A model generated the notes under the pieces. It saw only the letters and a program-made list of their open reading frames with translations. It had not been told where the DNA came from and made no database searches. A program made the position numbers and the translations under genes. This document shows, one piece after another, positions 2,398-11,529 of a DNA stretch of 11,529 bases (the first letter of the stretch is position 1; each line of letters begins with the position of its first letter). The DNA is from Spirochaeta sp. (lineage in GTDB: Bacteria; Spirochaetota; Spirochaetia; DSM-2461): positions 1 to 11,529 of the forward strand of contig JAUVIY010000056.1 in assembly GCA_030592625.1 (NCBI GenBank), given 5' to 3'.

Positions 2398-3396
2398 ATG
2401 ACTCCGACGATTAAGGACATCGCCGCCCGGGCGGGTATTTCCTACGCAACGGTTTCCCGGGCACTGAACGAGAAGTACGGAGTCAGCCGGGAAACCCGGG
2501 AGAAGGTAAAGGCTCTTGCCGAAGAGATGGGATACCGTCCCAATGCCATTGCTCAGGGCCTGGTAAACCGTACCACCATGACCGTCGGACTCATCATCCC
2601 CGATATCACCAATCCATTTTACCCCAGGCTGGCCCTGGGTATCGAAGACCGGCTATTGAAAGCCGGATACAACGTTTTTCTCTGCAATACCAGCTGGAAT
2701 CCGGATCGCGAACGGGATTATCTGAATAATCTGGTTCAGAAGCAGGTGGATGGGATCATCATTTCTTCCATTGCACATCATGCTGATGACATCGAATCAA
2801 TCATTCCCTCCGATATGCCGTTGGTCTATGTATCCAGTTATCCTGAAGACACTGAACGCAGCTATGTTCTGATTGATAACATCAAGGGTGCGGATATGGC
2901 GGTTTCCCATCTTCTCTTCCGGAAGCGTCGGAGAATCGCTTTCATCGGCAGCCAACAGGAATACCATTCCCTTGAAGACCGTCTCTCCGGATATCGCAAG
3001 GCGTTGAAACGTGCCGGTATCGAAGTCTCTGAAGATATGGTGGTTCTCGACAAATTTCAGGAGCAGAGCGGTTATAAAATTATCCGGGAACTTCTGGAGA
3101 AGGGTACCATCCCCGACGGTGTATTCGCCGAGAATGACATTATTGCCATGGGAGTGGTGCAGGGAGTACAGGATTCGGGATACCGGGTGCCTGAAGATGT
3201 AGCGGTCATAGGATTCGACGACATCCCCATTGCCTCTCATCCGGACATCCAGCTCTCCACTATCCACCAGCCGAAATACCGGATCGGTTCATATGCCGCA
3301 GAGATACTCCTGAATCAGCTAATCCAGGATCCTTCTGAAAGGAGAACTGAACGAATGACCCTCCAACCGGAACTTATCGTTCGTCGATCAAGTTGA
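2398..3396 (+). CDS. LacI/GalR-family transcriptional regulator, probable inositol-operon repressor
   Basis: A 332-residue protein of full family length. The N-terminal helix-turn-helix is at residues 3-23 (TIKDIAARAGISYATVSRAL), followed by the hinge helix around YRPNAIAQGLV (47-56). A periplasmic-binding-protein-like effector domain runs from about 62 to 330, with the usual GLIIPDITNPFY start, the VFAENDIIAMGV segment (242-253) and GFDDIPIASHP (272-282). It should act as a cytoplasmic dimer that leaves DNA when an inducer binds. Inositol or an early pathway intermediate is the likely effector by context, but I cannot read specificity from the sequence. It is encoded just upstream of iolB on the same strand, and matching operators lie before both genes. 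No Shine-Dalgarno precedes the ATG. Known iol regulators include DeoR-, RpiR- and GntR-type proteins, so a LacI-type local regulator is a different arrangement from the Bacillus one. Confidence 0.93.
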   Translation: MTPTIKDIAARAGISYATVSRALNEKYGVSRETREKVKALAEEMGYRPNAIAQGLVNRTTMTVGLIIPDITNPFYPRLALGIEDRLLKAGYNVFLCNTSWNPDRERDYLNNLVQKQVDGIIISSIAHHADDIESIIPSDMPLVYVSSYPEDTERSYVLIDNIKGADMAVSHLLFRKRRRIAFIGSQQEYHSLEDRLSGYRKALKRAGIEVSEDMVVLDKFQEQSGYKIIRELLEKGTIPDGVFAENDIIAMGVVQGVQDSGYRVPEDVAVIGFDDIPIASHPDIQLSTIHQPKYRIGSYAAEILLNQLIQDPSERRTERMTLQPELIVRRSS

Positions 3397-3470: not shown

Positions 3471-3485
3471 CGTAAACGTTTGCAA
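3470..3485. promoter_or_regulatory. LacI-type operator 2, upstream of iolB
   Basis: TCGTAAACGTTTGCAA is an imperfect dyad centred between 3477 and 3478. The inner arms AAAC/GTTT match perfectly, and the outer G/C (3472/3483) and T/A (3470/3485) pairs also match. It shares TAAACGTTT with operator 1. It covers the predicted transcription start and ends 13 nt before the iolB start codon, a classic repressor position. Confidence 0.7.
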
Positions 3486-3497
3486 AATGGAGTGGAA

Positions 3498-4313
3498 ATG
3501 GTAATACATCAGGAAAAACCATACGTAAACGGTATGAACATGGTTGTCCGGGACGCGGGCAATGCCGAGGGCATGCTGTTGGATTTCGGAATACTAAAAT
3601 TAGCTGAAGGCGAAATCTGGGAAGACTCGACAGATAAAGAGCGGGCCCTTATGCTCATCGGCGGCAGCGTGAGTTTCAGTTGGGACGGGGAAACACGGGG
3701 GGCCGTCCGTGCATCCTGTTTTGATGAGAATCCCGAAGCTCTCCATGTCCCCGGGGGTATGCCTATCAGACTCACCGGAGGCTCCGGCGGCGCCGAGCTC
3801 TGTTTTGAAGCCTGCATTAACGGCCGGGATTTCCCGTCGGTCTATTACGGCAAAGACGACATCCGGAACGATGTGTTCGGCGCCGGATCTCTGAATGAAA
3901 CCTCAATCAGAACGGTTCGTACCGTCTTTGACGGTGAGAATGCCGAGTTCTCGAATATGGTTCTGGGAGAAGTCATCAACCATCCCGGGAAATGGTCAAG
4001 CTATCCTCCCCATGATCATCCCCATCCCGAGATTTATCACTATCGAATGTTTCCCCAACAGGGATTTGGAGTGTCGCTTCTGGATTATGACGCCCAAACC
4101 GTCAGGGACAGAAGTACCAGTATCATCAGCCCCGATAAGACCCATTCCCAGGTGGCTGGAGCGGGATACGCCATGTACTACATCTGGATGATCCCCCATC
4201 TGCCCGGCGACCGCTGGCTGCCTACAACCCGGTATTTCCGGGAGGAACATAAATGGCTTCTGGAGAAAAATGTGAAGATTTGGCCTGAAAGGCCCTATGA
4301 GGAAGCAAAATGA
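3498..4313 (+). CDS. iolB: 5-deoxy-glucuronate isomerase
   Basis: IolB converts 5-deoxy-D-glucuronate to 2-deoxy-5-keto-D-gluconate, the fourth step of myo-inositol breakdown in the cytoplasm. The 271-residue length is typical of this bicupin family. The diagnostic block is at residues 163-191: PGKWSSYPPHDHPHPEIYHY followed by PQQGFG. H172, H174 and E178, with H216 in SPDKTHSQVAGAGY, are the probable metal ligands of the C-terminal cupin. ATG 3498 is preferred because GGAG (3489-3492) lies 5 nt upstream. The frame also opens at TTG 3480 and GTG 3492, but those lie in the operator and in the ribosome binding site. It is the first gene of the operon, and its stop overlaps the iolD start as ATGA, so the two are probably translationally coupled. 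Confidence 0.95.
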   Translation: MVIHQEKPYVNGMNMVVRDAGNAEGMLLDFGILKLAEGEIWEDSTDKERALMLIGGSVSFSWDGETRGAVRASCFDENPEALHVPGGMPIRLTGGSGGAELCFEACINGRDFPSVYYGKDDIRNDVFGAGSLNETSIRTVRTVFDGENAEFSNMVLGEVINHPGKWSSYPPHDHPHPEIYHYRMFPQQGFGVSLLDYDAQTVRDRSTSIISPDKTHSQVAGAGYAMYYIWMIPHLPGDRWLPTTRYFREEHKWLLEKNVKIWPERPYEEAK

Positions 4314-6178
4314 GCACTCTGCGATTAACCATGTCCCAGGCACTGGTGAAGTTCCTGGACAATCAGTACCTCGAGTCGGACGGCGAAGAAATCAAATTCG
4401 TCGAAGGTGTGTTCGGCATCTTCGGACACGGTTGTGTCGTCGGCATAGGGGAGGCGCTTCAGGAATCCGATCACAGCCTGAAATTCTACCAGGGCCACAG
4501 TGAACAGGGCATGGGACATGCCGCTATCGCCTTTGCCAAGCAGAATAAGCGGAAGAAAATCATGGCCGTTACCAGTTCCATCGGCCCCGGAGCCTTGAAC
4601 ATGGTGACCGCCGCCGGAACCGCAACGGCAAACCGCATTCCGGTTCTCTTCCTTCCCGGCGACGCCTTCGCCTGTCGACAGCCCGATCCTGTGCTCCAGC
4701 AGATCGAGATTCCTCATGATTACACCAATACAGCGAATGACGCGTTCCGCGCCGTCTGCAAATACTGGGACCGGATTGTCCGGCCCGAACAGCTCATGAC
4801 TGCCGCGTTGAATGCCATGCGCGTCCTCACCGATCCGGCGGAGACCGGCGCGGTCTGTCTGGCCCTGCCTCAGGATGTCCAGGCCGAAGCCTGGGATTAC
4901 CCCGAGGAATTCTTTGCCAAACGGATCCATCGCCCCGGCCGCCGGCCCCTCTCTCCCGGTGATGCACTGCGGGCTGCCAAACTTATCAAGGGCAAGAAAA
5001 GGCCCATGATTATCTGCGGCGGCGGCGTACGTTATTCCGGCGCCGGCGAGGAGCTGGCGAAGTTCGCTGCGGACTTCGACATCCCCTTTGCCGAGACTCA
5101 GGCCGGAAAGGGCGTCCTTGTCTGGGATAATCCCTTGTACCTCGGAGGCCTCGGTGTTACCGGTACCAGTTCGGCCAATGAAATTGCCCATGATACCGAT
5201 CTGATTATCGCCGTCGGGACCCGGCTCAACGACTTCACCACCGCTTCGAAATGGGACTTCCACAATCCGGAGGTGGAACTTCTGTCGCTTAATATCAGTG
5301 CTTTTGATGCCTACAAGATGAACGGGATTCCTCTTCTCGGAGATGCGAGACTCGCCCTGGCTGATATCTATCAGGAACTCAAGAGCCTTGGTTACAAGGC
5401 CGGTTGGGGCAGTCAGGTGAAAGACGCCATAGACACCTGGACGGCCGAAAATACCCGTCTCTTTTCGCTGGACGACGCCGAATCCGGATTCGCCCAGACT
5501 AAGGTGATGGGCCTGATGAACGAAGGCGGTATTCCCGAAGATGCCATCGTTGTTGCGGCTTCCGGATCCCTCCCTTCGGACATGGAGAGAATCTGGCGGA
5601 CCCGGGTTCCGGATACCTACCACCTGGAGTACGGATTCAGCTGCATGGGTTACGAGATTGCCGGTGCCCTGGGGGCGAAAATCGCCTGTCCCGATCGGGA
5701 AGTCTACTGTCTTCTGGGGGATGGTAGTTTCTGGATGCTCAACTCTGAGATGTTTACCGCTGTGCAGGAGGGTTTGAAGATCAACATTATTCTGATCGAC
5801 AACAACGGTTTCCACTGTATCGACAACCTCCAGGTCTCCCAGGGCATTCCTCATTTCGGTTGTGAGTTCCGGTACCGGAATCCTGAAACCGACCGGCTGG
5901 ACGGTGACTACATTCCTGTTGACTATGCGACCATCGCCCGGGGTGTCGGCTACGACAGCTACAGGGCCGAATCCAGCGACGAGTTCGTCAAGGCACTCAA
6001 AGCGGCCCGGGCAAGCGACAAGCCGGCACTGATCGATTGCAAGACGGCCCGGAAATCCATGACCGGCGATTACGGTGCCTGGTGGCGGGTTGGTACTCCC
6101 GAGGTTTCCAAAAAGAGTGCGGTTGTGGAGGCCGGCAGGAGTATCAGGAAAGAAGCCGCGAAGGCGAAACAGTTCTAA
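4310..6178 (+). CDS. iolD: 3D-(3,5/4)-trihydroxycyclohexane-1,2-dione hydrolase (ThDP-dependent)
   Basis: IolD hydrolytically opens the ring of the diketone made by IolE, giving 5-deoxy-glucuronate. At 622 residues it has the usual family length and the three-domain fold of the acetolactate-synthase superfamily. The N-terminal Pyr domain carries the cofactor-activating Glu (E65 in YQGHSEQGMGHAA). The central domain lies around residues 220-350. The C-terminal PP domain has the thiamine diphosphate/Mg motif GDGS (470-473) ending in DNNGF (497-501). The start overlaps the iolB stop by 4 nt. The overlap means no free leader, and the site most like a Shine-Dalgarno is GAGGAAG within the iolB end (about 4299-4305). 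The gene is full length with no visible damage. Other ThDP enzymes are less likely because the neighbours are all inositol enzymes and the GIFGHGCVVGIGEAL start is typical of IolD. Confidence 0.96.
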   Translation: MSTLRLTMSQALVKFLDNQYLESDGEEIKFVEGVFGIFGHGCVVGIGEALQESDHSLKFYQGHSEQGMGHAAIAFAKQNKRKKIMAVTSSIGPGALNMVTAAGTATANRIPVLFLPGDAFACRQPDPVLQQIEIPHDYTNTANDAFRAVCKYWDRIVRPEQLMTAALNAMRVLTDPAETGAVCLALPQDVQAEAWDYPEEFFAKRIHRPGRRPLSPGDALRAAKLIKGKKRPMIICGGGVRYSGAGEELAKFAADFDIPFAETQAGKGVLVWDNPLYLGGLGVTGTSSANEIAHDTDLIIAVGTRLNDFTTASKWDFHNPEVELLSLNISAFDAYKMNGIPLLGDARLALADIYQELKSLGYKAGWGSQVKDAIDTWTAENTRLFSLDDAESGFAQTKVMGLMNEGGIPEDAIVVAASGSLPSDMERIWRTRVPDTYHLEYGFSCMGYEIAGALGAKIACPDREVYCLLGDGSFWMLNSEMFTAVQEGLKINIILIDNNGFHCIDNLQVSQGIPHFGCEFRYRNPETDRLDGDYIPVDYATIARGVGYDSYRAESSDEFVKALKAARASDKPALIDCKTARKSMTGDYGAWWRVGTPEVSKKSAVVEAGRSIRKEAAKAKQF

Positions 6179-6191
6179 CGGAGGGTGGATG

Positions 6192-7088
6192 ATGCTGAAT
6201 AAAGATAAAATCAAGCTGGGTATCGCGCCTATCGGATGGACCAACGACGATATTCCGGAACTGGGTGCGGAAAACACATTCCAGCAGTGTATCAGTGAAA
6301 TGGCCCTGGCCGGCTTTGTCGGCAGTGAGGTAGGGGGAAAGTACCCCGATGATGCCCGGGAACTTAAAAAAGCACTGGATCTGCGGGGCCTTGTAATCTG
6401 CAACCAGTGGTTCAGCGCTTTTACCGTTTCCAGACCGTTTTCCGATGTGGAGAGGGAGTTCCGGAAGCAGCTGGATTTCCTTCGTATTGTCGGAGCCGAT
6501 ATCATCGGACCTTCAGAGCAGACCCGTTCCTGCCAGGGTAATCTCAACCTCGGGGTCCGGGCCGGTAAGGCCGAATTCTCCGGTGATGAATGGAAGACCC
6601 TGGTGGACGGTTTCAATCGGCTTGGTCGGATCGCGAAGGATGAAGGCTTCAAACTCTGTTTCCACCATCACATGGGCACCGGGGTCCAAACTCCCGAAGA
6701 GACAGAACGATTCCTGAACGATACGAATCCGGATACGGTTTTTTTAACCTATGATTCGGGACATTTTTCCTACAATGGTTCGGACCCCGTCGAGCAACTG
6801 AAGAAATTCGTATCCCGGGTGGGTCACGTTCACCTCAAAGATTTACGTGCGGACATACACGCCGTGGGCATGAGGGAAGATTGGCCCTTCATGAAAGCCG
6901 TCAGGGAAGGTGTTTTCACGGTTCCCGGCGACGGATCGGTGGATTTCCCCTCCATCTTCAAGATACTCAGGAGTGCCGGTTATGAAGGATGGATGGTGGT
7001 GGAAGCCGAACAGGATCCGGCCAAGGCCAATCCTTTCGAATATGCCCTTAAGGCCCGGAACTATATCCGGGAACAGACCGGACTTTGA
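6192..7088 (+). CDS. iolE: 2-keto-myo-inositol (inosose) dehydratase
   Basis: IolE removes water from 2-keto-myo-inositol to give the trihydroxycyclohexane-dione used by IolD. The 298-residue TIM-barrel protein belongs to the xylose-isomerase-like superfamily. It opens with LGIAPIGWTNDDIPELGAEN (residues 9-28) and EMALAGFVGSEVG, which are diagnostic of the family. Likely metal and substrate residues lie in HHHMGTG (158-164), YDSGHFSYNG (187-196), GHVHLKDLR (211-219) and VVEAEQDP (269-276). Two ATG codons stand in tandem at 6189 and 6192. The GGAGGG at 6180-6185 is better spaced for the second, which is chosen here, so the difference is one residue. It begins 13 nt after iolD stops. Confidence 0.95.
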   Translation: MLNKDKIKLGIAPIGWTNDDIPELGAENTFQQCISEMALAGFVGSEVGGKYPDDARELKKALDLRGLVICNQWFSAFTVSRPFSDVEREFRKQLDFLRIVGADIIGPSEQTRSCQGNLNLGVRAGKAEFSGDEWKTLVDGFNRLGRIAKDEGFKLCFHHHMGTGVQTPEETERFLNDTNPDTVFLTYDSGHFSYNGSDPVEQLKKFVSRVGHVHLKDLRADIHAVGMREDWPFMKAVREGVFTVPGDGSVDFPSIFKILRSAGYEGWMVVEAEQDPAKANPFEYALKARNYIREQTGL

Positions 7089-7114: not shown

Positions 7115-8128
7115 ATGAGTAAAAACCTGAGAATAGGAATCATCGGCGGCGGACGTATCGGAAAAGTCCATGCCGCAAATCTGACCACCCGGGTGGCCGG
7201 AGTCGAAGTGACGGTTATGGCCGATCCATTCGCAAATGAAGAACTGGAAGCTTTGGCCGCCGATTATGGCATCACCAGGGTGATAAAGGACTACAAGGAA
7301 ATATTGGACGACCCGGACATCGATGCCGTCCTGATCTGTTCTCCCACCGATACCCATGCGGCCATCACCAGGGAAGCCGCAATAGCCGGCAAGCATGTGT
7401 TCTGCGAGAAACCTCTGGATCAGGACCCGGATGTCATCAGAGAAACCCTTGATGTAGTGAAGCAGGCCGGGGTTGTGTTCCAGATCGGTTTCAACCGCCG
7501 CTTCGATCACAATTTCCGGGCCCTTCGACAGGCCGTCATCGATGGTTCGGTAGGTGACGTTCACCTGCTGCGCATCACATCCCGGGATCCCGAGCCGCCA
7601 CCGGCAGAATACGTTCGGGTCTCCGGTGGTCTGTTCCTGGACATGGCCATCCATGATTTCGACATGGCCCGGTATCTTACGGGAAGCGAAGTGGTGAAAG
7701 TCCATGCGGCAGGAGCGGTTCTGGTTGACCCGGCTATCGGCCGGGAAGGGGACATCGATACGGCCATTACTACACTCTGGTTCGAAAACGGAGCTCTTGG
7801 CGTCATCGATAATTCCCGGAAAGCCACTTACGGTTACGATCAGCGGGCCGAAGTGTTCGGCAGCAAAGGTTGTGCCGAGAGTACAAACGACGCGGCATCC
7901 ACGGTTGCCTTCAGCGATGCCGACGGGGTTCGGTCGGAGAAACCCTTGTTTTTCTTCCTGGAACGGTATGCCGAGTCTTTCGCCGAAGAGCTCCGGGATT
8001 TCGTCAAGGCTGTTAATGACGGTACTGAGGTTCCGGGCCGCAAAGCCGCGTTGAATTCGGTGCTTATCGCCCTCGCGGCCAAAAAATCACTGGAGACGGG
8101 ACTTCCTGTCGAAGTGGAGCGTGAGTAA
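7115..8128 (+). CDS. iolG: Inositol 2-dehydrogenase (Gfo/Idh/MocA family)
   Basis: IolG performs the first step, NAD-dependent oxidation of myo-inositol to 2-keto-myo-inositol. The 337-residue protein has a Rossmann nucleotide-binding start (GIIGGGRIGKVHA, residues 8-20). The family's catalytic lysine is K99 in CEKPLDQDP. The substrate-domain block GGLFLDMAIHDFDMARYLTG (171-190) contains the expected Asp176 and His180. GFNRRFDHNF at 125-134 is typical of inositol dehydrogenases. CGGAG at 7104-7108 serves as ribosome binding site. It is the last intact gene of the operon, 26 nt after iolE. Gfo/Idh/MocA proteins vary in substrate and some act on scyllo-inositol, but the operon makes myo-inositol the best guess. 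Confidence 0.92.
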   Translation: MSKNLRIGIIGGGRIGKVHAANLTTRVAGVEVTVMADPFANEELEALAADYGITRVIKDYKEILDDPDIDAVLICSPTDTHAAITREAAIAGKHVFCEKPLDQDPDVIRETLDVVKQAGVVFQIGFNRRFDHNFRALRQAVIDGSVGDVHLLRITSRDPEPPPAEYVRVSGGLFLDMAIHDFDMARYLTGSEVVKVHAAGAVLVDPAIGREGDIDTAITTLWFENGALGVIDNSRKATYGYDQRAEVFGSKGCAESTNDAASTVAFSDADGVRSEKPLFFFLERYAESFAEELRDFVKAVNDGTEVPGRKAALNSVLIALAAKKSLETGLPVEVERE

Positions 8129-8149: not shown

Positions 8150-8596
8150 ATGAAATCTGTGAAAATCGGGATCGTCGGTCTTGACCTGGGCCGAAAAAAA
8201 ACTTGGTATCACTGAAACTTACAAAGACTACGATGAGATGCTGGTAAAGGCCGATCTGGATGCCGTTTCTTTCGTGACCTCATCATCGATGCGCTTGAAA
8301 AAGGGCTCCACGTTTTCACCGAGAAACCCATGAGAATCAACCTTGAAGAAAGCAGGAAGGTTGAGGAAGTAGTTTCCCGGCACGGCAATCTGGTTTTCTT
8401 TGTCGGATTTGTCTGCCGATTCGATCCGAGTTACGCCTATGCCAGGAAGCTCATCGATGAGGGGGCTATCGGTGAATCGTTCCTGGTCCGGTGGTTCCTG
8501 GGATCGGAGATCAAGACCGTATATTCCAGGGGCGGAAGCTATGTCCACAAGGTTTTCGAGGAAGTGAATGATGCGTGTCGGCAAGAGATGGAATGA
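8150..8596 (+). pseudogene. Decayed second inositol 2-dehydrogenase-like gene (Gfo/Idh/MocA family)
   Basis: The fragments read as one dehydrogenase in three frames. MKSVKIGIVGLDLGRKK (8150-8200) holds the start of the Rossmann fold, then reaches a stop at 8213. LGITETYKDYDEMLVKADLD with following residues runs from 8202 in a second frame. ALEKGLHVFTEKP (catalytic EKP), then GFVCRFDPSYAYARKLIDEG and FLGSEIKTVYSRGG, continue to 8596 in a third frame. Compared with the intact IolG, about 30 residues of the nucleotide fold are missing at the A8 run (8194-8201). A short piece is lost at CTCATCATC (8279-8287). The whole GG-xx-DMAxHDxD substrate block is lost near 8489-8492. The C-terminal third is absent. 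It follows iolG by 21 nt and was probably once the operon's fifth gene. It cannot encode a working enzyme. Confidence 0.88.
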
Positions 8597-8674
8597 AAGC
8601 TACGGAAGTGGGTTTTACGATGACCGATTCATTTCGGCAGGGTTGTGAAATCGTTCTTTCGTAACTCACTGCTT

Positions 8675-9403
8675 CTAAGGTTGATTTTCCCTCTGCATGG
8701 TGTCCCGTACGAAGTCGGCGGTTTCCCTGAAATGAAGCTTGATGGCGCCGGCTGCGAGTTCGGGGTTGCCGGACTTGATGGCCGTCAGCAGGCGCTGGTG
8801 ATTATCGGCCTGCTGGGGCAGGGCATCCACTGAGAGATGGGCTTTCTTGATTTCTTCATAAAGGAATGATTTCAGGGTTTCATAGATGGAAATGATGATT
8901 CTGTTTCCGACTTCTTCAAGTACCAGCTTGTGGAAGTTGTAATCCAGTCTGACGAGAGTTCTCCGGTCTTCGGATTCCTCGGCGGCCCGCATTTTTACGA
9001 TGATCTCTTCCAGCTTGTGAATCAAGTTATCATGAGTATCGGGCTTTTCACTTATTCCCCTGGCCAGAGCCATGAAACACCAGAGCTCAATTGCACCCCG
9101 GAACTCAATGAGGTCGAATAAGTCGTCATTCCCAAGAAGAATGGACCAGGTGAGGGCTTCGCTTGTAATGTTGGATCGGTCGCAGACGAAAGTGCCGCGA
9201 GCCGTTCGGGACTCAAGAACCCCTATATAGTTGAATACCTTAATAGCTTCCCTGATTGAGGATCGGCCGATACCGAAACGTTCAGCTAATTCCTGTTCGG
9301 TAGGAATCTTGTCCCCGCTCTTGTACTGACCGGATGCAATCAGATCCCGGATTTTTTCCATTACCTGACCAACAACGGTCTGTTGACGGATTTTCTCGGA
9401 CAA
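8675..9403 (-). CDS. GntR-family transcriptional regulator, FadR (FCD) subfamily
   Basis: A 242-residue regulator with a winged helix at residues 8-75 (IPTEQELAERFGIGRSSIRE, then ESRTARGTFV). An all-helical FCD effector domain covers about 95-232. D154 and H158 (DYNFH), H202 (DNHQRLL) and H224 (KLHF) match the metal-binding set of that domain, which usually accepts small carboxylates or sugar acids. The start is TTG 9403, supported by a perfect AGGAGG (9410-9415 on the plus strand as CCTCCT) with a 6-nt gap. The gene is convergent with the iol operon and divergent from the transaldolase gene, which it probably controls. Two near-identical repeats upstream look like its binding sites. Its effector cannot be read from the sequence; a sugar acid or an aldehyde-derived acid would suit the context. 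Confidence 0.93.
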   Translation of the reverse strand: MSEKIRQQTVVGQVMEKIRDLIASGQYKSGDKIPTEQELAERFGIGRSSIREAIKVFNYIGVLESRTARGTFVCDRSNITSEALTWSILLGNDDLFDLIEFRGAIELWCFMALARGISEKPDTHDNLIHKLEEIIVKMRAAEESEDRRTLVRLDYNFHKLVLEEVGNRIIISIYETLKSFLYEEIKKAHLSVDALPQQADNHQRLLTAIKSGNPELAAGAIKLHFRETADFVRDTMQRENQP

Positions 9404-9621: not shown

Positions 9622-10704
9622 ATGGCTTCTACGAATCCCAAGCTGAAAATTATGACGGAGACCACGGATACCGATTACTGGAACGATTCCTGTTCCATTC
9701 AGGAACTGGAATACGCAATCCCGAACGGCGCTGTGGGGGCCACTACGAATCCTGTCATTGTTTACAATGTTTTAACCAAGGAATTGGACCTCTGGCGGGA
9801 CCGGATTCTCGAAATTGCGGCTCAGAACCCCACCGCCGACGAAGATGCAGTGGCCTGGCAGCTCATCGAGGAAATGGCCGTTAAGGGTGCCGAAATCCTG
9901 AAACCCGTTTTTGATAAGGAAAAAGGGCTCAAGGGCCGCATCTCCATTCAGACTAATGCCAAGTTCCACCGGAATGCCAAGGCTATGGTGGAACAGGCTC
10001 TCAAGTTCGATAAACTGGCGCCGAATATGCAGGTGAAAATGCCTGTTACCACAGCCGGTGTCGAGGCCATTGAGGAATCTACCTATCATGGCGTGAACAT
10101 CAATGCCACAGTGAGTTTCAGCGTTCCTCAGGCCATCGCCGTTGCCGAAGCCGTCGAACGGGGGTTAGTGCGCCGGGAAAAAGAGGGGAAGGATACATCC
10201 TCTATGACTCCGGTCTGCACAATCATGATCGGCCGTGTTGATGATTGGCTCAAAGTTGTCGCCAACAACAGGAACATCCTGGTGAATCCCGCCTATCTCG
10301 AGTTGGCCGGCGTCGCCGTGATGAAAAACGCCGCCAGGATTTTCAAAGAGAGGGGGTTTCGGACCCGGGTGTTGGGTGCCGCTTACCGGAACTGGAATCA
10401 TGTCGCCGAACTTATCGGCGGCAATGTTATTCATACCATCCCCTACAAATGGCAGCTTCGCTACAACGGCTCGGATATGCTCATCACCGAGACCACGACC
10501 GTCGCTCCGAATCCGGAGATGATTAAGGTTCTCAAGGATAACTTCGAGGATTTTACGAAGGCCTATGAGCCTGACGGCATGAAACCTGATGAGTTTGAAA
10601 ATTTCGGCCCGACCCGTCGTACACTGCGTCAATTCATCGGTGGATACGAGTCACTGCTGGCCATCATCCGGGATCTCATGATCCCGAATCCGGACATCGA
10701 GTAA
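9622..10704 (+). CDS. Transaldolase-family (Schiff-base aldolase) protein
   Basis: A 360-residue TIM-barrel protein of the transaldolase superfamily, which transfers or releases three-carbon ketol units through a lysine Schiff base. VGATTNPVIVYNVL (residues 38-51) matches the TTNP strand. The likely catalytic lysine is K139 in MQVKMPVTTAG (equivalent to K-x-P-A-T in transaldolases), followed by GVNINATVSFSVPQAI (157-172). The VLGAAYRNWNHV segment (250-261) matches the family's GAS-x-RN strand. D22 may be the N-terminal catalytic Asp. It is longer than fructose-6-phosphate aldolase types and has about 40 extra C-terminal residues, so it is not an ordinary housekeeping transaldolase. GAGGAG (9610-9615) precedes the ATG by 6 nt. 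It is divergent from the GntR regulator and 4 nt upstream of an acylating aldehyde dehydrogenase, suggesting that its cleavage yields an aldehyde. The substrate is unknown; inositol-derived deoxyketogluconate or a sulfo-sugar are possibilities. Confidence 0.85.
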   Translation: MASTNPKLKIMTETTDTDYWNDSCSIQELEYAIPNGAVGATTNPVIVYNVLTKELDLWRDRILEIAAQNPTADEDAVAWQLIEEMAVKGAEILKPVFDKEKGLKGRISIQTNAKFHRNAKAMVEQALKFDKLAPNMQVKMPVTTAGVEAIEESTYHGVNINATVSFSVPQAIAVAEAVERGLVRREKEGKDTSSMTPVCTIMIGRVDDWLKVVANNRNILVNPAYLELAGVAVMKNAARIFKERGFRTRVLGAAYRNWNHVAELIGGNVIHTIPYKWQLRYNGSDMLITETTTVAPNPEMIKVLKDNFEDFTKAYEPDGMKPDEFENFGPTRRTLRQFIGGYESLLAIIRDLMIPNPDIE

Positions 10705-10708
10705 CGTC

Positions 10709-11529
10709 ATGAGTTCAGATCCCAAGACTTACATCAGCGACATGGTTGCCCGAGCCCGGGCGGCCCAGAAGAAGATCGAGTTTGCCGACCAGAAAACCAT
10801 CGACGATATTGTTGCCCGGATCGCCCGGGCGGGAACCACCGAAGCCTTTGCGAAGAAGATTGCCGAACTGGCGGTCGAGGAATCCCGAATGGGCCGGGTG
10901 GACAGTAAGATCGGCAAAATGATGGTGAAGGTGAAGGGCGTGTACCGGGACCTGAAAGATGCCAGGACCGTGGGTATCATCGAGCGGGATGAGAAGAAGG
11001 GCCTGGTGAAGATTGCCAAGCCCATCGGCGTCATCGGCGGCCTGATTCCCGTCACCAACTGCGAAGCCACCCCCTTCGGCAAGGCCATCAGCGCCATCAA
11101 GACCCGGAACGCCATCATCATGGCTCCCCATCCCCGGGCGGTGAAAACCGGCAAGCTGGCCGTCGATCGGATGCGCATGGTCCTCAAACGCCACGGCTGG
11201 CCTGAAGACCTGGTCCAGACCATCGAAGAGGTTTCGGTGGAAACCTCAGGAGAGCTGATGGCCCAGTGCGACCTGATTCTGGCCACCGGCGGCACCCCCA
11301 TGGTTAGGGCCGCCTACTCCAGTGGCAAGCCCACCCTGGGCGTCGGCGCCGGCAACGCGGTCACCATCGTGGATACCACAGCCGACACCGATGAGGTGGC
11401 CGACAAAATCATGCGGTCGAACACCTTCGATCATGCCACCAGCTGTTCCACCGAGAACTCCTGCCTGGTGCCTGAATCCATGGTGGATCAGATGAAGGTG
11501 AGTTTCGAGAAGGCCGGCGCCTATCTGGT
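10709..11529 (+). CDS. Aldehyde dehydrogenase, CoA-acylating type, 3'-truncated by window edge
   Basis: The frame opens at ATG 10709, 4 nt after the transaldolase stop, and stays open for 273 codons to the edge, so about half to two thirds of the protein is seen. KPIGVIGGLIPVTNCEATPF (about residues 105-124), then KTRNAIIMAPHPRAVKT and LATGGTPMVRAAYSSGKP, with GVGAGNAVTIVDTT, are the signature blocks of acylating aldehyde dehydrogenases. The catalytic Cys is C246 in FDHATSCSTENS. This block looks closer to the sulfoacetaldehyde-dehydrogenase (SauS)-like branch than to the AdhE N-terminal domain, from memory of the families only. Such enzymes oxidise a short aldehyde with CoA and NAD(P) to an acyl-CoA, or run in reverse. 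Substrate candidates are malonate semialdehyde, acetaldehyde or sulfoacetaldehyde. No separate ribosome binding site is obvious, so it is probably coupled to the transaldolase gene. Confidence 0.88.
   Translation, partial: MSSDPKTYISDMVARARAAQKKIEFADQKTIDDIVARIARAGTTEAFAKKIAELAVEESRMGRVDSKIGKMMVKVKGVYRDLKDARTVGIIERDEKKGLVKIAKPIGVIGGLIPVTNCEATPFGKAISAIKTRNAIIMAPHPRAVKTGKLAVDRMRMVLKRHGWPEDLVQTIEEVSVETSGELMAQCDLILATGGTPMVRAAYSSGKPTLGVGAGNAVTIVDTTADTDEVADKIMRSNTFDHATSCSTENSCLVPESMVDQMKVSFEKAGAYL

Follow-up and report, generated by a model that had tools for sequence, protein, structure and literature searches.

A transaldolase-family protein and a CoA-acylating aldehyde dehydrogenase as a candidate kinase-free lower branch of inositol catabolism in a spirochaete

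We analysed an 11,529-nucleotide stretch of DNA from Spirochaeta sp. (GenBank assembly GCA_030592625.1, contig JAUVIY010000056.1; hereafter the window), which is the entire contig C124 of a 2.84 Mb genome in 438 contigs that is 73% complete. Beside genes for the upper steps of myo-inositol catabolism, it encodes a 360-amino acid protein of the transaldolase/fructose-6-phosphate aldolase (FSA) family (TAL; 9622..10704, + strand) and, 4 nt after the TAL stop codon, the first 273 of ~470 amino acids of a coenzyme A (CoA)-acylating aldehyde dehydrogenase (ALDH; 10709..11529, + strand), whose open reading frame (ORF) runs off the contig end. On balance, the sequence data make it somewhat probable that this pair represents the start of a kinase-free lower inositol branch ending in malonyl-CoA, a variant of the known pathway that seems to occur across several phyla of bacteria.

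From gene content, linkage, conservation and predicted fold, we infer the substrates, the reaction mode and the energy coupling as follows. IolG, IolE, IolD and IolB would convert myo-inositol to 2-deoxy-5-keto-gluconate (DKG). DKG is 5-deoxy-D-fructuronate and resembles a fructose-6-phosphate whose phosphate group is replaced by a carboxylate. The C5 ketone of DKG would form a Schiff base with TAL, which would cut the C3-C4 bond, freeing malonate semialdehyde and leaving the C3 ketol unit. This unit would then depart as dihydroxyacetone (aldolase mode, slightly favoured) or, alternatively, be transferred onto glyceraldehyde-3-phosphate, yielding fructose-6-phosphate (transaldolase mode). ALDH is predicted to convert malonate semialdehyde, with NAD and CoA, to malonyl-CoA, and a carboxyltransferase, encoded by the next gene in relatives and thus beyond this contig, would transfer the carboxyl group to biotin and leave acetyl-CoA; the biotin-borne carboxyl perhaps feeds a Na+-pumping decarboxylase. 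A preliminary description of the window had proposed that the pair cleaves DKG or its phosphate and captures the aldehyde as a CoA ester. The core of this proposal agrees with the active site and with the genes found around TAL in several phyla, with unphosphorylated DKG now favoured over the phosphate, malonyl-CoA as the probable ester and the carboxyltransferase added as a third partner.

The window shares with the canonical myo-inositol pathway (IolG-E-D-B-C-J-A of Bacillus subtilis) the IolG, IolE, IolD and IolB steps and, as predicted, malonate semialdehyde as the lower-branch product, but it has a predicted class I Schiff-base enzyme and a predicted non-decarboxylating acylating dehydrogenase, and neither the kinase IolC, the class II aldolase IolJ nor the decarboxylating IolA. 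The upper genes were confirmed by NCBIfam scores over the cut-offs for IolD, the trihydroxycyclohexanedione hydrolase (4310..6178, +; 892.9, cut-off 715), IolE, the inosose dehydratase (6192..7088, +; 377.7, cut-off 290), and IolG, the inositol 2-dehydrogenase (7115..8128, +; 450.7, cut-off 355). The IolB-like 5-deoxy-glucuronate isomerase (3480..4313, +), which would make DKG, is a divergent member that matched the KduI/IolB Pfam family (155.8 bits) and reached only 80.9 of the 205 bits set for the iolB equivalog TIGR04378; G005, a relative from the same genus, has a similarly divergent IolB plus a second one (185.6) adjoining IolC. In line with the preliminary description, the window showed no IolC, IolJ or IolA. 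The genome itself, at 73% completeness, gave no match to TIGR04382 (iolC) at E ≤ 1e-40 or to TIGR01722 (iolA) at E ≤ 1e-90, and the ALDH piece gave none to TIGR01722 (IolA/MMSDH, cut-off 448.5) at E ≤ 0.001; IolJ and the carboxyltransferase were sought in fetched stretches only, not genome-wide. The slot 3' of IolG, which holds iolC-iolB2-iolJ in G005, G006, G007 and G008, is occupied in the window and in G004 by the remnant of a second IolG-like dehydrogenase (IolG2; in pieces at 8181..8661, +, in the window), a protein that is full length in several relatives and shortened also in G004.

TAL belongs to the TAL_FSA superfamily (PF00923; 148.6 bits, cut-off 27) and, with the ALDH start 4 nt on, bears out the earlier report of a tightly coupled pair. 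It scored under the equivalog cut-offs for transaldolase (TIGR00876, 78.9/233.75; TIGR00874, 61.5/396.2; PRK03343, 109.7/367) and for fsa (TIGR00875, 51/245.95), and its closest named matches are from spirochaete metagenome-assembled genomes. Conservation was assessed over 171 aligned sequences, 54 from the loci described below and 117 of the best 120 of 7987 matches, and thus within a close family by choice; duplicate rows, whether from a locus fetched twice or identical in sequence, were dropped from this alignment and from the tree, two sequences with an in-frame stop (L158, L061) were left out of another alignment, and L061 entered the tree by its matched range only. The residues D22, N43, K139 and T163 are kept in 171/171 members, Lys139 being the Schiff-base lysine. 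Gln110, equally invariant, stands at the position of the TalB acid/base Glu96, so that TAL has the FSA-type glutamine, aligned with that of FsaA, and not the transaldolase-type glutamate. E. coli FsaA likewise combines a glutamine acid/base with a Schiff-base lysine and has dihydroxyacetone as its C3 unit. Arg205 and Arg256 lie at the anion site and are invariant over the 171 members. Unphosphorylated DKG would fit such an active site. DKG-phosphate is disfavoured as a substrate, since it carries the phosphate on the C3 unit, which the TAL/FSA superfamily handles as free dihydroxyacetone.

Co-occurrence with inositol genes, a check suggested in the preliminary description, was examined in 61 genomes (the window genome and 60 relatives), counting TAL above 400 bits and leaving out a partial match in G042. 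TAL was present in 15 genomes and iolD over its cut-off in 20; 12 had both, 3 TAL only, 8 iolD only and 38 neither, an association beyond chance (Fisher p = 2e-5) that persisted without the window's own genus (7/3/6/36, p = 0.001) and with the partial G042 TAL counted (p = 7e-5). TAL and iolD lie no more than 11 kb apart on one contig in half of the genomes having both (6/12). A scan of one genome per species yielded 44 TAL loci, 14 of which have IolD, IolE or IolB in the fetched stretch and one of which has IolC/IolJ; as many of these stretches are short, 14/44 is a lower bound. At the genome level, iolD was found at E ≤ 1e-80 in 27 of the 44 and over the cut-off in 24. A phylum-wide sample of 149 genomes had iolD over the cut-off in five and TAL at E ≤ 1e-50 in five, with G000 in both, which is too few for statistics. 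Locus L134 (G060:C11, 11476-12057) carries a partial TAL with an in-frame stop between iolD and iolE, and the same genome has two other TAL copies on other contigs.

Three spirochaete clusters (L126 in G016, L127 in G021 and L128 in G024) contain TAL, ALDH and carboxyltransferase followed by LacI, IolB, IolD and IolE. L126 and L127 also have an ABC transporter and IolG2, and L126 and L128 have IolG. No IolC or IolJ was detected in these three stretches and no iolC at E ≤ 1e-40 in G016 and G021, while G024 has a separate IolB, IolC, IolJ, IolD and IolG cluster on another contig (L129). ALDH directly follows TAL in nine genomes (the window, L025, L026, L030, L035, L126, L127, L128 and L148); the carboxyltransferase is third in six of them (L025, L026, L035, L126, L127, L128), and in the remaining three the contig ends within or just after ALDH. 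TAL also has iol genes as neighbours in Chloroflexota, Bacteroidota and Bacillota, for example as TAL-IolB-IolD-IolA-IolE-IolG in a Caldilineaceae genome (L038), IolB-IolA-TAL-IolD in Erysipelothrix urinaevulpis (L064), TAL-IolD-IolA in Bacteroidales (L041) and LacI-IolG2-D-E-G-ABC-TAL-IolB in L059. No close ALDH was found beside TAL outside the spirochaetes; L043 has a distant ALDH there (32%). An IolA-type dehydrogenase is instead present at four iol-linked loci, recognised by score in L038 (533.5/448.5) and L064 (409.5, just under the cut-off) and by similarity in L041 and L052, and the fetched stretches of L036, L039, L051, L056 and L059 showed neither ALDH nor an IolA-type dehydrogenase. 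Overall, these neighbourhoods suggest that TAL stands in place of IolC and IolJ and, in spirochaetes, ALDH and the carboxyltransferase in place of IolA.

When 29 genomes were searched for iolC (G198, G097, G063, G154 and 25 of the 44 with a TAL locus), three had it over the cut-off, and 19, these three included, had PfkB-family matches at E ≤ 1e-30. Among the 25 locus genomes, 17 have iolD and 14 of these 17 are without iolC over the cut-off. The three genomes with iolC (L031, L065, L066) have no iolD, iolE or iolB beside TAL; an incomplete 174-bit match at a contig edge in the L036 genome may be a real iolC.

The substrate of ALDH is better supported than that of TAL, which is the least certain point. 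The closest solved relative of ALDH is an acylating succinate-semialdehyde dehydrogenase (8cei), and its best NCBIfam match is SauS (NF047625), with 288 for the incomplete piece; both are acylating enzymes for small anionic aldehydes, as is predicted for ALDH. The third gene in relatives encodes a PF01039 carboxyltransferase with 770-772 bits to mmdA (cut-off 998.8), and its nearest solved relatives are a propionyl-CoA carboxylase beta subunit and an mmdA-type subunit. ALDH orthologues were also found in another setting. In G048 (L156, C22, 1949-16885) a class-III aminotransferase comes directly after the orthologue (57%), with an NCS2 nucleobase permease, a carboxyltransferase (53%), a biotin carrier and OAD beta on the opposite strand and a PreA dihydropyrimidine dehydrogenase (597.5 bits, cut-off 335) ~4 kb beyond the aminotransferase. 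In G026 (L152, C106, 2227-10882) the order is ALDH (58%), aminotransferase, symporter and PreA-like and PreT-like genes. Both ALDHs fall within the same shallow radiation as those linked to TAL, and the best model for both aminotransferases, over its cut-off, is a 'hypothetical protein' subfamily without a substrate-specific name. Reductive pyrimidine degradation yields beta-alanine, which is transaminated to malonate semialdehyde. L156 and L152 may therefore encode a candidate route from pyrimidines and beta-alanine to malonyl-CoA, and this gene context independently points to malonate semialdehyde as the ALDH substrate. ALDH and the carboxyltransferase thus seem to serve two unrelated sources of malonate semialdehyde, which suggests malonyl-CoA, followed by acetyl-CoA, as the products.

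That the best match of ALDH is SauS might instead indicate that the pair serves a sulfo-sugar, with TAL as a sulfofructose (SF) transaldolase and ALDH as a SauS-like sulfoacetaldehyde dehydrogenase, and one TAL clade, at 50-53% identity, does occur in sulfoquinovose-type clusters. We consider this very improbable for the window and rejected it on residues and partner genes: four full-length ALDH relatives score 530.7, 541.7, 521.3 and 525.8 against the SauS cut-off of 600, the gene context of ALDH orthologues points to malonate semialdehyde, the tryptophan and glutamate of SF transaldolases are arginine and glutamine in TAL, the carboxyltransferase has no evident use for sulfoacetyl-CoA, and none of the known sulfosugar genes was seen in the window. 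The sulfo-sugar alternative named in the preliminary description may thus hold for part of the family, though very probably not for this locus. The sulfo-TAL enzyme itself (SftT/BmSF-TAL; PDB 8bc3) belongs to the same superfamily. If our proposal is right, the two would follow the same logic, in which an unphosphorylated 6-anionic ketohexose loses C1-C3 by Schiff-base chemistry and leaves an anionic C3 aldehyde. SftT differs in being ~220 amino acids long, with a glutamate acid/base and the anion-site tryptophan of its WAR motif for a sulfonate, as against 360 amino acids, glutamine, Arg205 and a predicted carboxylate in TAL.

Several observations weigh against the proposed branch. In G005, whose TAL is 77% identical, LacI, IolB, IolD, IolE, IolG, IolC, the second IolB, IolJ, IolG2, the ABC transporter, TAL, ALDH and the carboxyltransferase follow each other in one run of ~19 kb (L124, L125, L026). 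The preliminary description had named canonical iolC, iolJ and iolA together with the pair as an observation that would refute it; iolC and iolJ do accompany the pair here, and no iolA was found in G005 at E ≤ 1e-90. G007 has IolC/IolJ with TAL on another contig, and in G008 they lie ~32 kb from TAL. Canonical iolC is present in 5/12 genomes with TAL and iolD (G005, G007, G008, G024, G048) and in 2/8 with iolD and no TAL (G006, G022; absent in G001, G012, G028, G034, G050 and G054). A complementarity of IolC and TAL was thus not borne out in the 61 genomes (7/12 without iolC among those with TAL versus 6/8 among those without), and since absence of iolC does not track with TAL in this sample, other solutions or unrecognised kinases must exist. 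The common PfkB kinases under the cut-off could be divergent IolC, and 17 of the 44 TAL-locus genomes have no iolD at E ≤ 1e-80. Nor is the pairing constant: the two nearest TAL homologues (92% and 86%; L023, L024) are not followed by ALDH, which together with the carboxyltransferase is on another contig in G008 (L024; L146) and was not found at E ≤ 1e-60 in G004 (L023, the closest TAL; 77% complete). On the TAL tree the iol-linked rows do not form one clade, and the label requires 14 changes against a shuffled mean of 16.3, a value reached as low in 54/500 shuffles. The TAL residue aligned with TalB F178, a position we take to be equivalent to FSA Tyr131, is a methionine and not the FSA tyrosine, so the glutamine acid/base argument is borrowed from a different setting. 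As for the partners, neither dihydropyrimidinase nor ureidopropionase was identified among the ORFs scanned in L156 or L152, not every ORF being covered, and in L156 a transposase-like ORF, with the symporter, separates the aminotransferase from PreA. OAD beta was found in 50/61 genomes, with two copies in the window's own, so its presence proves little and the marker is uninformative; none was found in G021 (80% complete), one of the three model clusters. Overall, TAL is genuinely linked to iol genes, but the linkage varies, and TAL can occur alongside IolC and IolJ.

These relatives also allow for a division of roles in which only ALDH, with the carboxyltransferase, is inositol-catabolic and replaces IolA after IolC/IolJ, the iolC and iolJ genes of our organism lying in the missing quarter of its genome and TAL serving another inositol isomer or sugar. 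Both iolC and iolJ are present in all of G005 to G008; these four genomes, like G000, gave ALDH-family matches and no iolA match at E ≤ 1e-90; G006 has iolC/iolJ and ALDH-carboxyltransferase with no TAL of this family, and the own genome is 73% complete. We nevertheless regard this division as unlikely, given that the slot for iolC-iolB2-iolJ holds the IolG2 remnant in the window and in G004, neither genome showing iolC over the cut-off, and that TAL-type iol clusters without iolC recur far beyond the genus.

A second doubt concerns the reaction of TAL. The Faecalicatena protein F2, of the same family and ~50% identical, sits in a sulfoquinovose cluster; its authors found it to be sulfoquinovose-induced and suggested that it is a fructose-6-phosphate aldolase (Borusak et al. 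2024, PMC11659671). Its catalytic residues D23, K140, Q111, N162 and T201 occur at the aligned positions of the L066 protein and correspond to D22, K139, Q110, N161 and T200 in the window; the parts of that paper covered here hold no link of F2 to inositol. TAL might accordingly be a fructose-6-phosphate aldolase or ordinary transaldolase that gives triose phosphate to a neighbouring pathway, with DKG cut by IolC/IolJ or unrecognised equivalents elsewhere. The two conserved arginines at the phosphate site would suit such an enzyme, and six of the eight iolD-positive genomes without TAL are also without canonical iolC, so that some other DKG-cleaving solution must exist. This would, however, leave no known DKG-cleaving step in the TAL iol clusters that are without iolC/iolJ in genomes without iolC over the cut-off, and fructose-6-phosphate cleavage has no obvious role in clusters such as L064 and L038; we therefore consider it rather improbable. 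For the preferred reading, in which TAL cleaves DKG, the aldolase mode is slightly ahead of the transaldolase mode because of Gln110 and of the dihydroxyacetone kinase co-induced in the Faecalicatena cluster (PMC11659671). Dak1 kinase was detected in 15 of 27 genomes searched (15/26, as G047 and G203 are one genome). For the 12 without it, a point against the aldolase mode, dihydroxyacetone would need glycerol kinase, or the unit goes to glyceraldehyde-3-phosphate.

The remaining features of the window are an RNase D piece, first in gene order and labelled by similarity to L025, a DUF438-hemerythrin-PAS protein (865-2169) 5' of the iol genes, a LacI-family regulator at their head (2398..3396, +) and a GntR/FCD-family regulator (8675..9403, - strand) divergent from TAL. 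The latter, reported before as a GntR regulator, was recovered by a profile match, and its homologue adjoins TAL or sits in the iol cluster in several relatives. The closest TAL genes (L024, 12033-16993; L023, 2209-7249) lie near xylulokinase-like, galactitol-1-phosphate dehydrogenase-like, GatZ and aldo-keto reductase-like genes. At L129 (1883-7731), a more distant acylating ALDH (48%) and CoA-transferase-like, HMG-CoA-lyase-like and split transketolase genes, the last of a different residue type, lie 5' of a canonical iolBCJDG cluster in a genome without iolA at E ≤ 1e-90. G050 carries a split transketolase (L160, C1:3188000-3207000, at 14283-16099) within an iolBDEG, LacI and IolG2 cluster that has neither TAL nor IolC, and its anion-site residues R9, A36, D108 and R166 are those of the Faecalicatena-type SF transketolase; this gene is possibly a transketolase version of the lower inositol branch.

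In open-access PMC, which does not cover subscription papers and preprints, no paper was found to link a transaldolase with inositol breakdown, judged by titles, abstract openings and passages of PMC7736159 and PMC12130570, in which the two are mentioned separately. We tentatively suggest that the kinase-free branch may mirror sulfoglycolysis, with DKG as the carboxylate analogue of sulfofructose, cut by a transaldolase-family enzyme (a split transketolase in some genomes, e.g., G050), and with a malonyl-CoA decarboxylation that would pump Na+ and keep the energy IolA wastes. Soils, sediments and the gut are rich in inositol and phytate. As pathway calls rest on iolC, iolJ and iolA, organisms with a kinase-free branch would be scored as incomplete. 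If the proposal is true, it would give a function to a widespread family annotated only as 'transaldolase', explain some iol clusters without kinase and aldolase, provide a potentially energy-saving route through malonyl-CoA for anaerobes, and make a single enzyme family the link between inositol and sulfoquinovose metabolism.

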